Part shown: piece after piece, positions 56,245 through 62,462 of the stretch
Layout: each line of letters opens with the position of its first letter
How positions within the stretch are numbered: position 1 is the stretch's first letter
Assembly (NCBI RefSeq): GCF_029946185.1
Contig: NZ_JAQSEA010000010.1
Coordinates: 21,176 to 85,175 of the forward strand
Source: Prosthecobacter sp.
GTDB taxonomy: Bacteria > Verrucomicrobiota > Verrucomicrobiia > Verrucomicrobiales > Verrucomicrobiaceae
Direction of reading: 5' to 3'
DNA: 64,000 nt
The notes under the pieces: generated by a model
What the model was told of the DNA's origin: nothing
Seen by the model: the letters and a program-made list of their open reading frames with translations, nothing else
The model's database searches: none
Position numbers and translations under genes: made by a program

Positions 56245-57150
56245 TCATTTTCCACCACCCTTCACCGCCGCATCATACGCAGGCCAGAAACTGGCCGGCG
56301 GCATCAGGTCCTTGCCGCCGTCGTCAAACCGCGTGCCAATCTCCTGCAACGGCAGCGATTTCGCCACCTCAATGCCCGCCGTGATATTGGCCGGAGTGAA
56401 CACTAGACGCGTAAGCTGCATGCCCTTCAGCGGGCTCAAATCCGTCACCGGCGTGTCGGCAATATGCAGGCGCTGCAGGGCCGTGCCGGTCAGTGGGGAG
56501 AGATCCTTCACATTCGTACCTTGCAGCGTCACGCTCACCAGCGGCACCGTTTTCAGCGCGCTGATATCCGCCACCGGGCAGTCCGTCAGCCACAGCATCT
56601 GGATCGGGCAGTGGGCGATTCCTGAGATGTCGCCAATCGGGCAGCCCACCGCGTTCAGCTCCACCAGCGGCATGTTTTCCAGCGCCGCCAGATTTTCGAC
56701 CGGCGTGCGGCTCAGGTAGAGTTTTTGCAGCGGCATGCCCCGGATCGGCGAAAGATCCCGCACCTTCGTGTCTTCAAGGTACAGCTCCACCAGCTTCTTG
56801 CCCTGCATCGGCCGCAGGTCAGTGATGGGCGTCTCGCTCAGGTCCAGCGCCATCGGCTCGATGTGTTCGAGAAACTTCACGTTCTCAATTTTCGCCCCAC
56901 GCAGGCTCAGCGCCACCACCTTCCCGTCTTCGATATTGAACTGCCCCGTCCCGGTGTAGCCAGGGTTATGAAACTTGATCTCCGTGTGCATCATCTCCTG
57001 CGTCCAATACACCTTCTTCGGCGCGTCCTTCGTCGGAGCTGGCACAGCCGCAGGTGCTTCCACCACGGCTTTCGGCGCAGGTGCAGGTTTCTTGGCTTCA
57101 TCACCACACTGGGTCAAAAGGAGAGGAAGGAGGAGCAGACTGGGCTTCAT
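56245..57150 (-). CDS. Leucine-rich-repeat-like lipoprotein
   Basis: MKPSLLLLPLLLTQCGDE lipobox; about 9 repeats of ~20-22 aa (PLQKLYLSRTPVENLAALENM, PLVELNAVGCPIGDISGIAHC...). Confidence 0.8.
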   Translation of the reverse strand: MKPSLLLLPLLLTQCGDEAKKPAPAPKAVVEAPAAVPAPTKDAPKKVYWTQEMMHTEIKFHNPGYTGTGQFNIEDGKVVALSLRGAKIENVKFLEHIEPMALDLSETPITDLRPMQGKKLVELYLEDTKVRDLSPIRGMPLQKLYLSRTPVENLAALENMPLVELNAVGCPIGDISGIAHCPIQMLWLTDCPVADISALKTVPLVSVTLQGTNVKDLSPLTGTALQRLHIADTPVTDLSPLKGMQLTRLVFTPANITAGIEVAKSLPLQEIGTRFDDGGKDLMPPASFWPAYDAAVKGGGK

Positions 57151-57250
57151 GCCATGGGCATGCCGGATTTCTCCCCACGTTGCAAGGCGGAAGTGAAACA
57201 AGGGGCAAAGAAGAAAAAGAAATAGGCAGCCGCATCCCGTTTCTGGCAGC

Positions 57251-59509
57251 ATGGCTTTGATCATGCTGCGCTCGCTCACCTTCTTTCTTCTCTGCACCTT
57301 CGCTTACGCGGACGAGTTTGACCCACTGCGTGCCGTGGTCAGCAAAGCCGTCGCCAAAGGGAATCCGCCAGGCGCGGTGCTCTGGTTTGAGAGCGGCCCG
57401 CAGAAGATGACCTTCACGACGGGCCAGCGCGCGCTCATTCCAGCAATGGAAGCAATGACGGAGGACACCGTCTTTGATGCCGCATCTCTCACCAAAGTGG
57501 TCGCAACACTCCCGAGTGTCCTGATCCTGATCGAGCAGGGCAAGATCGCGCTGGAGTCGGAAGTGCGCCAATATCTCCCGGAGTTTCGCAGCGGCATCAC
57601 CGTGCGGCATCTCCTCACCCACACCTCCGGTTTGAAGGCGGGTCTTCCCAAGGTGCCGGAATGGACAGGTTATGCAGCAGGCATCGCACACGCCATCTCC
57701 TCAGAGCCAGACGGACCTCCCGACCGCTTCTTCCGCTACTCCGACATCAATTTCATCCTGCTCGGCGAGATCGTGCAACGCGTCAGCGGCATGCGCTTGA
57801 ACGAATTTGCCGCAAAACATGTGTTCGCGCCGCTGCACATGGACTCCACGCGCTTCCTGCCACCAGCCGAATGGATCCCACGCATCGCACCCACAGAGAA
57901 AGACGAAAGCGGCGTCATGCTGCGCGGCGTAGTCCATGACCCCGCCTCACGCAAGATGGGCGGTGTCACCGGCCACGCCGGCCTCTTCACCACCGCCGCC
58001 GATCTGGCCAAATACTCACGCATGATCCTTCAAGACGGCGCAGGCGTCCTCAAACCGGAGACGGTGAAGCTGATGACGGCACCGCAGACGATTGCCACAG
58101 TCTTCGAACGGCGCGGCCTCGGCTGGGACATCGACTCCACTTTCAGCAGGCCGCGTGGCAAAACATTCCCCATCGGTTCCTTCGGCCACACCGGATTCAC
58201 CGGCACAAGTCTATGGATCGCGCCCGCATCGAAGACCTTCGTCATTTTCATGAGCTCACGCCTGCACCCCGAGGGCAAAGGCAGCGTGCGCGATTTGTAT
58301 GAAGAGATCGGTACCGCAGCAGCTCAATGCGTGAAGCTCACCCCCGCCACTGGCCCACCCTGGCCGCGTGCCGAGACCGAAGTTCCCACGGTATTGAATG
58401 GCATCGACGTCCTCGCGCGGCGCAAGTTCGCAGACTTGCAAGGCCTCCGCGTCGGCCTCATTACCAATCAAACCGGCATCGATGCCCAGCGCCACAGCAC
58501 CATCGATCTTCTGGCAAATGCCCCCGGCGTGAAATTGAAAAAACTCTTCAGTCCCGAGCACGGCATTCGTGGCGAACTCGATCAGGAAAAGATCAGCAAC
58601 TCGACCGACAAAAAGACCGGCCTGCCTGTGCTCAGCCTCTTCGGTGAACAGCGCGCACCCACTCAGGACCAACTCGCAGACTTGGATGCCTTGGTGTTCG
58701 ACATTCAAGACATCGGCTGCCGCTTCTACACCTACATCGGCACCATGCGGCTTTGCATGGAGGCCGCAGCGAAAGCGAAGAAAGCTTTCTACGTGCTGGA
58801 CCGCGTCAATCCCATCGGCGGCATCCAAGTGGAAGGCCCCGCAGCCATCGATGCCGAAAAACCCACCGCCACCCACGCCATCCCTCTGCGCCACGGCATG
58901 ACCGCCGGCGAACTCGCCGCCATGATGAACGCCGAGCGCAGCATCGGCTGCGACTTAAAGGTGATCCCCGTCGAAGGCTGGCAGCGCCACATGCTCTACG
59001 ATCAAACCGGGCTGCCTTGGATTAATCCCTCGCCCAACATGCGCTCATTGAATGCCGCGCTGCTCTATCCAGGCGTCGGCCTCCTGGAGTTCAGCATCAC
59101 CGTCGGGCGCGGCACAGACACCCCGTTCGAAATCCTCGGCGCACCCTACGTGGACGACCTGCGGCTCTCGTATGAACTCAACAAACTGGGCCTTGCAGGT
59201 ATCCAGTTCACCCCGCTGCGCTTCACGCCCACCGCGAGCATTTTCAAAGGCGAGGCATGCGGCGGCGTGCGCATGGCCATCACAGATCGCACTGCATTGC
59301 ATGCGGTCGATGTGGGCATTGCCATCGCCTGCACATTGCAGCGGCTTTACCCAAAAGAGTTTAAGCTGAGCCTGGTGGATACCCTGCTCAATCGCGCCGC
59401 CAGTGTGAAGGCGCTGCGCAGTGGCGAGACATGGAAAAAGGTGTTGGCAGGCTGGGTCGCGGAGACGCAGGTGTTTGAGGCGAGAAGGCGGACCTACCTC
59501 CGCTATTGA
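57251..59509 (+). CDS. Beta-lactamase-fold serine hydrolase fused to NamZ-like (DUF1343) exo-beta-N-acetylmuramidase domain
   Basis: SxxK motif DAASLTKVVATLP, YSDINFILLGE; DUF1343: GLITNQTGID, LFSPEHGIRGE, DIQDIGCRFYTYIGTM, DRVNPIGG. Confidence 0.88.
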   Translation: MALIMLRSLTFFLLCTFAYADEFDPLRAVVSKAVAKGNPPGAVLWFESGPQKMTFTTGQRALIPAMEAMTEDTVFDAASLTKVVATLPSVLILIEQGKIALESEVRQYLPEFRSGITVRHLLTHTSGLKAGLPKVPEWTGYAAGIAHAISSEPDGPPDRFFRYSDINFILLGEIVQRVSGMRLNEFAAKHVFAPLHMDSTRFLPPAEWIPRIAPTEKDESGVMLRGVVHDPASRKMGGVTGHAGLFTTAADLAKYSRMILQDGAGVLKPETVKLMTAPQTIATVFERRGLGWDIDSTFSRPRGKTFPIGSFGHTGFTGTSLWIAPASKTFVIFMSSRLHPEGKGSVRDLYEEIGTAAAQCVKLTPATGPPWPRAETEVPTVLNGIDVLARRKFADLQGLRVGLITNQTGIDAQRHSTIDLLANAPGVKLKKLFSPEHGIRGELDQEKISNSTDKKTGLPVLSLFGEQRAPTQDQLADLDALVFDIQDIGCRFYTYIGTMRLCMEAAAKAKKAFYVLDRVNPIGGIQVEGPAAIDAEKPTATHAIPLRHGMTAGELAAMMNAERSIGCDLKVIPVEGWQRHMLYDQTGLPWINPSPNMRSLNAALLYPGVGLLEFSITVGRGTDTPFEILGAPYVDDLRLSYELNKLGLAGIQFTPLRFTPTASIFKGEACGGVRMAITDRTALHAVDVGIAIACTLQRLYPKEFKLSLVDTLLNRAASVKALRSGETWKKVLAGWVAETQVFEARRRTYLRY

Positions 59510-59533
59510 TGGAGAGGAAGAGTCCGTGCTACC

Positions 59534-60493
59534 ATGCAGCAGATGAAATCCCGCCGCTTCCTTCTCGCCTTCACCCTCCTGATTGTCGCCTGCGGCAAAA
59601 CTACGGATGAGCATGCGGCATCGCGGGGCACCATCGCAGTATCCTTGCTCTCATTGCAGAACCCCTTTTTCAAAGTCATCGGCGACAGCATCATCGCCGA
59701 AGCAAAAAAGAACGGCTATGACACGCTCGTGGTCAGTGCAGATGGCGACGTCGCACGCCAGAGCAATCAGATCAAAGACTTCATCGTGAAGGATGTCGCC
59801 GCCATCGTGTTGAGTCCCACAGATTCCAAGGCGATCGTGACCGTCATCCAGGAGGCAAACGCCGCCGCTATTCCCGTCTTCACCGTGGATGTTCCCTGCA
59901 ACGAGCCCGGTGTGAAAATCGTGACGCAAGTGGCCACCGACAACTTCGGCGGCGGCAAAATGGCGGCAGAGGCCATGATCGAAGCGCTGCAAGGGCAGGG
60001 CGGGAAGATCGGCGTGCTCGACATGAAGCAAGTGGAGTCCTGCATCCTGCGCGTGAAAGGCTTCAAAGAAGTTCTGGCTGCCTACAACGCCACGGCGGCG
60101 AGAAAGATCGAGATCGTGAGCGAGCTCGACTGCGGCGGCGCGAATGACAAGGGCTACAAAGCCACCGAAGACATGCTGCAGGCACAGCCAGATCTCGTCG
60201 GCATCTTTGCCATCAATGACCCCGGCGCGCTCGGCGCACGCGGTGCCATTGAGAAGGCGGGCCGCACTGACAAAGTCGTCATCATCGGCTTCGATGGCCA
60301 GCCCGAAGGCAAACAAGCCATCAAAGAAGGCAAGATCTACGCCGACCCCATCCAGTTCCCCGACAAAATGGGCGCTGAAGTCGTGCGCGCATTCATGCGC
60401 TACTCCAAAGGCGAAGAGCTCCCGCCGCAGCTGCTCATCCCGACCAGCCTGTATCGCAAAGCCGATGGCGTGGCCGATGCTTCGCTGAAATGA
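59534..60493 (+). CDS. Sugar ABC transporter substrate-binding protein (ribose-binding-like), lipoprotein
   Basis: LLIVACGKT lipobox; IAVSLLSLQNPFFKVIGDSIIAEAKKNGYD; VATDNFGGGKMAAEAM; IFAINDPGALGARGAIEKAG. Confidence 0.9.
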   Translation: MQQMKSRRFLLAFTLLIVACGKTTDEHAASRGTIAVSLLSLQNPFFKVIGDSIIAEAKKNGYDTLVVSADGDVARQSNQIKDFIVKDVAAIVLSPTDSKAIVTVIQEANAAAIPVFTVDVPCNEPGVKIVTQVATDNFGGGKMAAEAMIEALQGQGGKIGVLDMKQVESCILRVKGFKEVLAAYNATAARKIEIVSELDCGGANDKGYKATEDMLQAQPDLVGIFAINDPGALGARGAIEKAGRTDKVVIIGFDGQPEGKQAIKEGKIYADPIQFPDKMGAEVVRAFMRYSKGEELPPQLLIPTSLYRKADGVADASLK

Positions 60494-60497
60494 TCCC

Positions 60498-61043
60498 ATG
60501 CTCAATCTCATGAACCCGCTCACCCTCCTCACCTTGCTGGCGCTCGGCGCAGCCACTGTCTCTGCGGCAGAGCCGAAACCCGAATCTGAATTCACCACCA
60601 CCGACCCGAAGAAGGTCAAAATCTTAGAGGACTCATCCCGCGAAAAAGATCCCGAGATCGATCACTTCAAGCATCTCTGCCCCGGTCTCGGTGGCTATCA
60701 GGTCATCCATGAAGGCGGCGATCTCCGCAGCTGGATCAATCTGATTTTCGACGGCAACAAAACCGACCTCATGGGCGATACTCTCAGCGCCTGCCCCGGC
60801 CAGTTCCCCGCAAAAGCCAACGACGTCGTGCAATGGCGCGGCCTCCGCCAGGGCGGCTCCTTCATCCCATACGCAATCATCTACCGCATGATGTCGAGCG
60901 CCGATGACGAAAAGCAGACGCGCCTCGAAACGCTCGTCATCATCAAGCTCGACAAGGATAAATCGACCATCGTCGGGCATGTGCCCGCGAAGGAAGGAAA
61001 TGAAAAAGCCGAACTGCTGGCGGACAAGCTGTGCAAGCCCTGA
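60498..61043 (+). CDS. Hypothetical secreted protein
   Basis: Signal peptide MNPLTLLTLLALGAATVSAAEP; 181 aa. Confidence 0.7.
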   Translation: MLNLMNPLTLLTLLALGAATVSAAEPKPESEFTTTDPKKVKILEDSSREKDPEIDHFKHLCPGLGGYQVIHEGGDLRSWINLIFDGNKTDLMGDTLSACPGQFPAKANDVVQWRGLRQGGSFIPYAIIYRMMSSADDEKQTRLETLVIIKLDKDKSTIVGHVPAKEGNEKAELLADKLCKP

Positions 61044-61171
61044 GCAAAAACGCATGAAGACCGTTATGAATGGCACTCGGTTAAGGCATAGCCTCGTTCG
61101 CTTTTGCAGTTCCAAGGGCATCGAATTTGTCGCCTCGGCATTTCCTTGGCAGCATGCTGCTATAGCAGTTG

Positions 61172-61355
61172 CCAAAACGCATTTCCGTTTAGTTGACTGT
61201 CTCTTGCTCGAAGAGGGTGGCTCCGACGGCGGCTGGCTGAGAGCCGCCAGCCCTACCTGCGCTGGGCATAGGCATGCTCGGCGCGAGGTAGAGCCCTTGG
61301 TCCTCCAAGCGCCGTCGAGCGTCGCCATGCGTCGCTTTCCGGGAAGCCGTTTTGG
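61172..61355. repeat. MITE-like element with imperfect terminal inverted repeats (copy A)
   Basis: Left end CCAAAACGCATTTCCG, right end CTTTCCGGGAAGCCGTTTTGG; internal hairpin GGCTGGC...GCCAGCC; related sequence in opposite orientation at 63881-63975. Confidence 0.6.
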
Positions 61356-61391
61356 AAAACGCTACATCCTTCATCACATGGCTCCGCCGCA

Positions 61392-61526
61392 CACCAGTCC
61401 CAACGGGACTGCGCATCATAGCGAAGGGTTGCCGAGCCTCAGCGAGGCTACCCTGGGGCCCCGCCATCAAATCCGGAAAGCAAACCCAGCACCCCGCTAC
61501 ACCCCACGCTCACCAGCAGCGTTTGC
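61392..61526. repeat. Dispersed two-hairpin repeat, copy 1
   Basis: CACCAGTCCCAACGGGACTGCG...AGGGTTGCCGAGCCTCAGCGAGGCTACCCT...CTCACCAGCAGCGT. Confidence 0.75.
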
Positions 61527-61574
61527 AAAAAGCCCCGCCATGCAGAGAGAGGATCGCCACCTTCACAACCCACG

Positions 61575-62462
61575 ATGAATGCTTTTAAACGAATGCCGCT
61601 CAGGTCTGTGATTTCATTCATCCAATGCTCCCGACGCACACTGTTGCTGGCAGCTCTTGCCACCTGCTTCTGCTGGAATGTGCAGGCCGCCGACGAGGTG
61701 CCGCACGTGCGCATCCTCTTTCTCGGCAACAGCTACACCGCGTTCAATCTCCTGCCCGGCATGGTGGGCGAGCTCATGCTTTCCTCCCAGATGCTGGCTC
61801 CGCATATCGGCAGCAATTTAGAGGGCAGCTACACGCTGGAGCGTCACACCACCAATCCAGAGGGCATGGCCTTGCTGAAAAAAGGCGCCGATGACGGCAA
61901 GCCCTGGGATGTCGTCGTGGTGCAGGAGCACAGCGTCGTGTCTGCTGCCGCTGCGGTGGATGAAGATGCCAGACTGCTGATGGAAAACGGTCTCTCCAAG
62001 CTCGTCAAATCCGCCCACGAATTAAACCCCAAAGTGCTCGTCGTCGTTTTTCAGGTGTGGGCGCGGCACGAAAGACTTTGGAAAGAAAAGTCCCCCGATG
62101 CACTCGCGACGGGCGCAGAGCCTGCGCAGGCACGTGCTCGCACCCACCTCGCGAATGCAAACGCCGTGAAGGCGGCCCAGGAAAAAAATCCAGGTGCAAA
62201 GATCATTGTCAGCCCCGTGGGGGATTTCTGGTGGCTGGTCCATGATGTCTATCCGGCCATGTCGCTTTACGCCGAGGATGGCATGCATCCCGACCTCATG
62301 GGAACATTGCTCAGCGCGTATGTCATCGCCGGCAGCATCGGCGGACGAGAAGTGATCGAACAGTCCACGTGGATGCCGCCAGACTGCCCTGCAGTGCAGG
62401 TGGCGCGAGTGAAGAAGACGGTGCTGGACCACCCCGAAGTGTTCAAGGCGGCAGGGAAATGA
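61575..62462 (+). CDS. SGNH/GDSL-type hydrolase-like secreted protein
   Basis: Signal peptide; VRILFLGNSYTAFNLLPGMV block I-like (GNS); YAEDGMHPDLMGTLLSAYVIAG block V-like (DxxH). Confidence 0.8.
   Translation: MNAFKRMPLRSVISFIQCSRRTLLLAALATCFCWNVQAADEVPHVRILFLGNSYTAFNLLPGMVGELMLSSQMLAPHIGSNLEGSYTLERHTTNPEGMALLKKGADDGKPWDVVVVQEHSVVSAAAAVDEDARLLMENGLSKLVKSAHELNPKVLVVVFQVWARHERLWKEKSPDALATGAEPAQARARTHLANANAVKAAQEKNPGAKIIVSPVGDFWWLVHDVYPAMSLYAEDGMHPDLMGTLLSAYVIAGSIGGREVIEQSTWMPPDCPAVQVARVKKTVLDHPEVFKAAGK

Follow-up and report, generated by a model that had tools for sequence, protein, structure and literature searches.

A fused serine hydrolase-NamZ protein of Prosthecobacter and the ribose-class binding lipoprotein encoded behind it

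A 752-aa protein of Prosthecobacter sp. combines a serine hydrolase and a NamZ enzyme in one chain, and our verdict is that it is an ordinary fusion enzyme whose genetic neighbour is the separated half of a ribose-class importer. It is quite probable, in our assessment, that the two halves together form a two-enzyme chain for cell-wall fragments and that the lipoprotein encoded next door acts as receptor for a separate importer of the ribose class. Both genes lie in the window, the whole stretch of 64,000 nucleotides that was analysed (G000:C10:21176-85175), the end of which is also the end of its contig. The source assembly comprises 6.19 Mb in 317 contigs, with a completeness of 95.9%. The relevant features are as follows.

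57251..59509, + strand: fusion protein of 752 aa, consisting of a signal-peptide-like segment, an S12 serine hydrolase and NamZ (open reading frame, Pfam, homologues, structural model)
57329..58294, + strand: serine hydrolase domain, residues 27-348, of the beta-lactamase fold and PBP4B/AmiE-like (Pfam PF00144, motifs, YfeW identity, invariant columns)
58451..59506, + strand: NamZ domains, residues 401-600 (NamZ_N) and 604-752 (NamZ_C) (PF07075, PF20732, match to PDB 4k05)
59534..60493, + strand: ribose-class (CUT2) substrate-binding lipoprotein (SBP) of 319 aa (Pfam, RbsB-like models, pocket residues, co-occurrence)

Domains and predicted activity of the fusion protein

Pfam divided the fusion protein into Beta-lactamase (residues 27-348, 5e-54), NamZ_N (401-600, 5e-81) and NamZ_C (604-752, 6e-37) domains, all matched far beyond chance. 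The initial annotation had placed both open reading frames correctly and had named the SLTK (79) and YSD (163) motifs of the N-terminal half; the third S12 motif, HTG (313), which it left unnamed, is also present. The N-terminal half thus carries the full set expected of the S12 family (PF00144), namely S79LTK82, Y163SD165 and H313TG315, together with a GHAGLF stretch at 241. The assignment of the C-terminal half to DUF1343/NamZ was likewise borne out, as NamZ_N scored 271.5 bits against a curated cut-off of 26.9 and NamZ_C 128.1 bits against 25, with the motifs SPEHGIRG at 434 and DIQDIGCRFYTY at 484 retained. In an alignment of 52 fusion sequences, the others being 52-89% identical to the window protein, S79, K82, Y163, S164, D165, H313 and G315 of the N-terminal half were invariant, and so were E436, H437, D484, Q486, D487, R491 and others of the NamZ half, whose catalytic residues were judged by conservation alone. 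Since the catalytic motif residues are invariant across the alignment, both enzyme halves look catalytically intact. The N terminus (MALIMLRSLTFFLLCTFAYADEF) has the appearance of a signal peptide by eye, suggesting that the protein is exported.

An AlphaFold2 model of the fusion gave a mean pLDDT of 88.2 and a pTM of 0.71, the domains being mostly confident and their mutual placement less sure. The NamZ half of this predicted model matched PDB 4k05 with a TM-score on the target of 0.90 and an rmsd of 2.2, and the two also matched by sequence (1e-79); this half has the predicted fold of the solved DUF1343 proteins. NamZ corresponds to CAZy family GH171, and ybbC is its gene in B. subtilis. Like the B. 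subtilis enzyme, the NamZ half described here has both domains complete and above cut-off, with the SPEHG, D.QD.G.R.YTY and GRGT motifs conserved; unlike it, it forms the C-terminal half of a fusion, whereas the B. subtilis protein has a gene to itself, next to amiE and nagZ.

The best NCBIfam model for the N-terminal half was PBP4B (NF002968 equivalog). As its score of 90.6 bits falls far under the cut-off of 385, the N-terminal half is classified by sequence as a PBP4B relative and not as the equivalog. It shares with E. coli PBP4B/YfeW the S12 fold, the SxxK, YSD and HTG motifs, a VHD...MGGV.GHAGLF stretch and a link to MurNAc metabolism, but is only 29% identical to it over 314 columns and is fused to NamZ. 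The yfeW gene belongs to the murQ-murP-yfeW operon of E. coli, and in B. subtilis amiE, nagZ and ybbC come after murQRP, with AmiE and NagZ acting on muropeptides in sequence outside the cell (PMC5061867). The initial annotation was therefore right that the Bacillus amidase and NamZ are encoded by separate genes of one cluster. Because the N-terminal half is nearest to PBP4B/YfeW of a MurNAc operon, an AmiE-like amidase role is plausible; the sequence compared was that of E. coli YfeW.

According to the proposed mechanism, the exported chain would take peptidoglycan fragments apart in two steps. The N-terminal serine hydrolase would strip the peptide from MurNAc, or trim it, and the NamZ half would then cleave off the MurNAc at the non-reducing terminus of the stripped glycan, both activities on one chain keeping the steps together. 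We infer the substrate, the order of the steps and an amidase rather than an esterase or DD-carboxypeptidase activity. The initial reading of a single-chain hydrolase plus NamZ stands to this extent, with a PBP4B/AmiE-like domain and muropeptides as the likely substrate, whereas the inclusion of the SBP in it is not supported. If the fusion works as proposed, it would offer a handy way of releasing MurNAc from muropeptides with one polypeptide chain.

The breadth of the S12 fold, which also holds esterases, D-peptidases and transesterases, is a point against the amidase reading. The N-terminal half could instead have D,D-carboxypeptidase/endopeptidase activity, or could remove a decoration of the wall, such as an O-acyl group, as an esterase, and so clear the glycan for NamZ in another way. 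All these activities occur among S12 members; the fold matches of this half were S12 esterases and peptidases, with EstG, not an amidase, ranking first and EstB and ClbP also among them, and its other NCBIfam matches included AmpH and the lipase LipE. We nevertheless consider a non-amidase function rather unlikely, since the best family model is PBP4B, the gene of which lies in a MurNAc operon, and the regular association of this half with NamZ suggests that muropeptides are its substrate.

Distribution of the fusion and the fate of MurNAc

Both halves were matched in all 80 best loci of a GTDB-based collection, a few being cut by a contig end, and the fusion was recovered in 32/32 genus-mates fetched, albeit only in part in G082. 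The fusion noted in the initial annotation is thus widespread, and it is so in Verrucomicrobiota. In the G082 locus (L051, 7974-10213) the fusion is interrupted and leaves an open reading frame of 510 aa, owing to either a real break or an assembly error. Nearly all genus-mates had two NamZ matches, in open frames of ~750-830 aa and ~420-530 aa: a fused copy and a stand-alone one. The stand-alone paralogue of the source genome (L094 7437-8690, G000:C5) is located downstream of genes for a protein of 818 aa whose C-terminal domain is AhpC/TSA and for a ThuA-domain protein. Among 142 genomes drawn from the order, NamZ_N was detected in 100; one genus with small genomes lacked it in those of its members that were listed.

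Beyond the phylum, Burkholderia and Cupriavidus plasmids also yielded matches, covering 92-97% of the fusion at ~38-40% identity and annotated, where at all, as a NamZ-domain protein or a serine hydrolase. The two plasmid fusions examined, from Burkholderia savannae (L191 6787-11160) and Cupriavidus metallidurans (L192 6800-11238), differ from the present one in lying 3' of polysaccharide deacetylase and putative glycoside hydrolase genes. A survey from 2008 tabulates one DDPept-DUF1343 protein, YP_439122.1, which is likened to the fusion by its tabulated domains, the same two (PMC2605481). The fusion is accordingly not new, having been tabulated in 2008 and being common in its bacterial group; our analysis adds context to a protein that databases annotate only loosely.

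On two haloarchaeal plasmids, the serine hydrolase and DUF1343 genes are separate near neighbours. The clusters concerned (L193, NZ_CP096661.1, 8628-17194; L194, NZ_CP044525.1, 9242-17233) encode an anhydro-MurNAc kinase, a serine hydrolase, a glycoside hydrolase or hypothetical protein, DUF1343/NamZ and NagZ, with an ABC importer nearby, and one of the two also includes a peptidoglycan-recognition protein gene. Haloarchaea are not known to make peptidoglycan, and these clusters look like systems for scavenging bacterial wall fragments; a limited literature search found no paper on haloarchaeal peptidoglycan scavenging with NagZ. The occurrence of hydrolase and NamZ as a fusion in some lineages and as neighbours in others supports joint action of the two on peptidoglycan fragments.

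MurQ above cut-off, AnmK and AmpG were not found in the assembly (96% complete), which leaves no clear sign of the customary route for using MurNAc once it is released, and in the window neither MurQ or AnmK genes nor muropeptide transport genes were linked to the fusion. A 509-aa SIS-domain protein (L092 5516-7045, G000:C197) was considered as MurQ and set aside: it is tandem-SIS-like and GKRP-like and scored under every MurQ cut-off (106.6 versus 302 bits for TIGR00274 and 140.6 versus 168 for NF003915). A short GH3 protein encoded on C108, which by eye has no signal peptide, may be an enzyme similar to NagZ. Nutritional recovery of MurNAc is thus at most a possibility.

These observations also bear on whether the fusion acts on the wall of its own cell, in turnover, and not on foreign peptidoglycan, in scavenging. 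Its genus-wide conservation alongside a stand-alone NamZ paralogue would suit such a role, as would a signal-peptide-like N terminus appropriate to a periplasmic enzyme. With no AmpG, AnmK or above-cut-off MurQ found for reuse of the products, and with NamZ_N not generally required, to judge from the small-genome genus, own-wall turnover is a possibility of some substance but the less favoured one.

Partner and ligand of the binding lipoprotein

The SBP has a Peripla_BP_4 domain (residues 34-295, 6e-57) and a lipobox-like IVAC at residues 17-20. It had been described as an orphan, which holds for the window, where no permease or ATPase gene lies beside it, but not for the genome. Two BPD_transp_2 permeases were found genome-wide, one RbsC-like on C80 and another on C65 with GguB as its best model. 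In ten genus-mates, an SBP orthologue is directly followed by an orthologue of the C80 permease, eight of them (G015, G027, G068, G007, G012, G060, G138 and G108) by orthology and two (G142 and G144) by coordinates. Moreover, among 36 genomes of the genus, the 29 with an SBP orthologue (E below 1e-130) all had the permease, and the other 7 had neither. This adjacency and perfect co-occurrence identify the RbsC-like permease as the partner. The Peripla_BP_4 domain and a partner permease (adjacent, and co-occurring in 29/29 and 7/7) place the SBP among CUT2 binding proteins, and it most probably represents the detached receptor of a ribose-class importer, the permease of which is encoded on another contig of the source genome.

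The seven genomes lacking both genes (G102, G120, G071, G135, G043, G126 and G117) all possess the fusion. On a tree of fusion proteins from 33 genomes of the genus, the absent state required five changes, at least three of them forced by well-supported branches; 38 of 500 shuffles needed as few, and the tree is a gene tree. The absences therefore look scattered and not the outcome of one event, though how many losses occurred independently is uncertain.

A single CUT2-type ATPase was found in the assembly, beside a xylose-type SBP on C294, and is kept in nearly every genus-mate. It probably energises the SBP importer as well; such sharing is possible, and the assembly may lack part of the genome. 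The xylose-type genes of C294 and C65 were rejected as partners of the SBP, as C294 has its own XylF-like SBP.

Both proteins resemble RbsB/RbsC-type (CUT2) ribose importers, the SBP and permease best matching RbsB and RbsC models, and differ from them in that their genes are split in the source genome, with no dedicated ATPase gene seen. The C80 permease (L091 8638-9990) also carries a long N-terminal extension, ~165 residues without a Pfam match preceding the BPD_transp_2 domain. The SBP reached 162.6 bits against the cut-off of 337 for RbsB proper (NF007936 equivalog). At the pocket positions of RbsB, it keeps eight residues (N13, F15, F16, D89, R141, N190, D215 and Q235), and R90 is changed to V/I and F164 to G in 30/30 aligned sequences. 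Our best guess from these residues is that the ligand would be some small sugar different from ribose; nothing in the SBP points to MurNAc.

Adjacency of the fusion and the lipoprotein gene

The SBP gene follows the fusion on the same strand after 24 bp. This order and orientation hold for 14 of the 33 genomes of the genus placed on the tree, and co-expression is possible in those genomes. This arrangement had suggested one compact peptidoglycan-scavenging locus in which the SBP would capture MurNAc or GlcNAc freed by the fusion. Such a locus is very unlikely, because the spacing varies across the genus from the 24 bp of the window to ~1.7 kb (G088), the SBP tracks the RbsC-like permease, the fusion also occurs where both are missing, and the RbsB pocket residues are mostly kept. 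The single-locus proposal is therefore not supported. The position of the SBP gene behind the fusion, confined to part of one genus, is most likely incidental, and a tempting link is thereby corrected: the adjacency of SBP and enzyme is lineage-specific, and cross-genome co-occurrence points to a partner on another contig. We give hardly any credence to the idea that, in the sub-lineage with this arrangement, shared expression has drafted a ribose-class transporter without its own ATPase gene into wall-sugar uptake.

A promoter and terminator scan of 57000-61600 returned nothing above shuffles. Further downstream, 60498-61043 and 61575-62462 encode two proteins without a Pfam or NCBIfam match, which most of the closest relatives retain 3' of the SBP.
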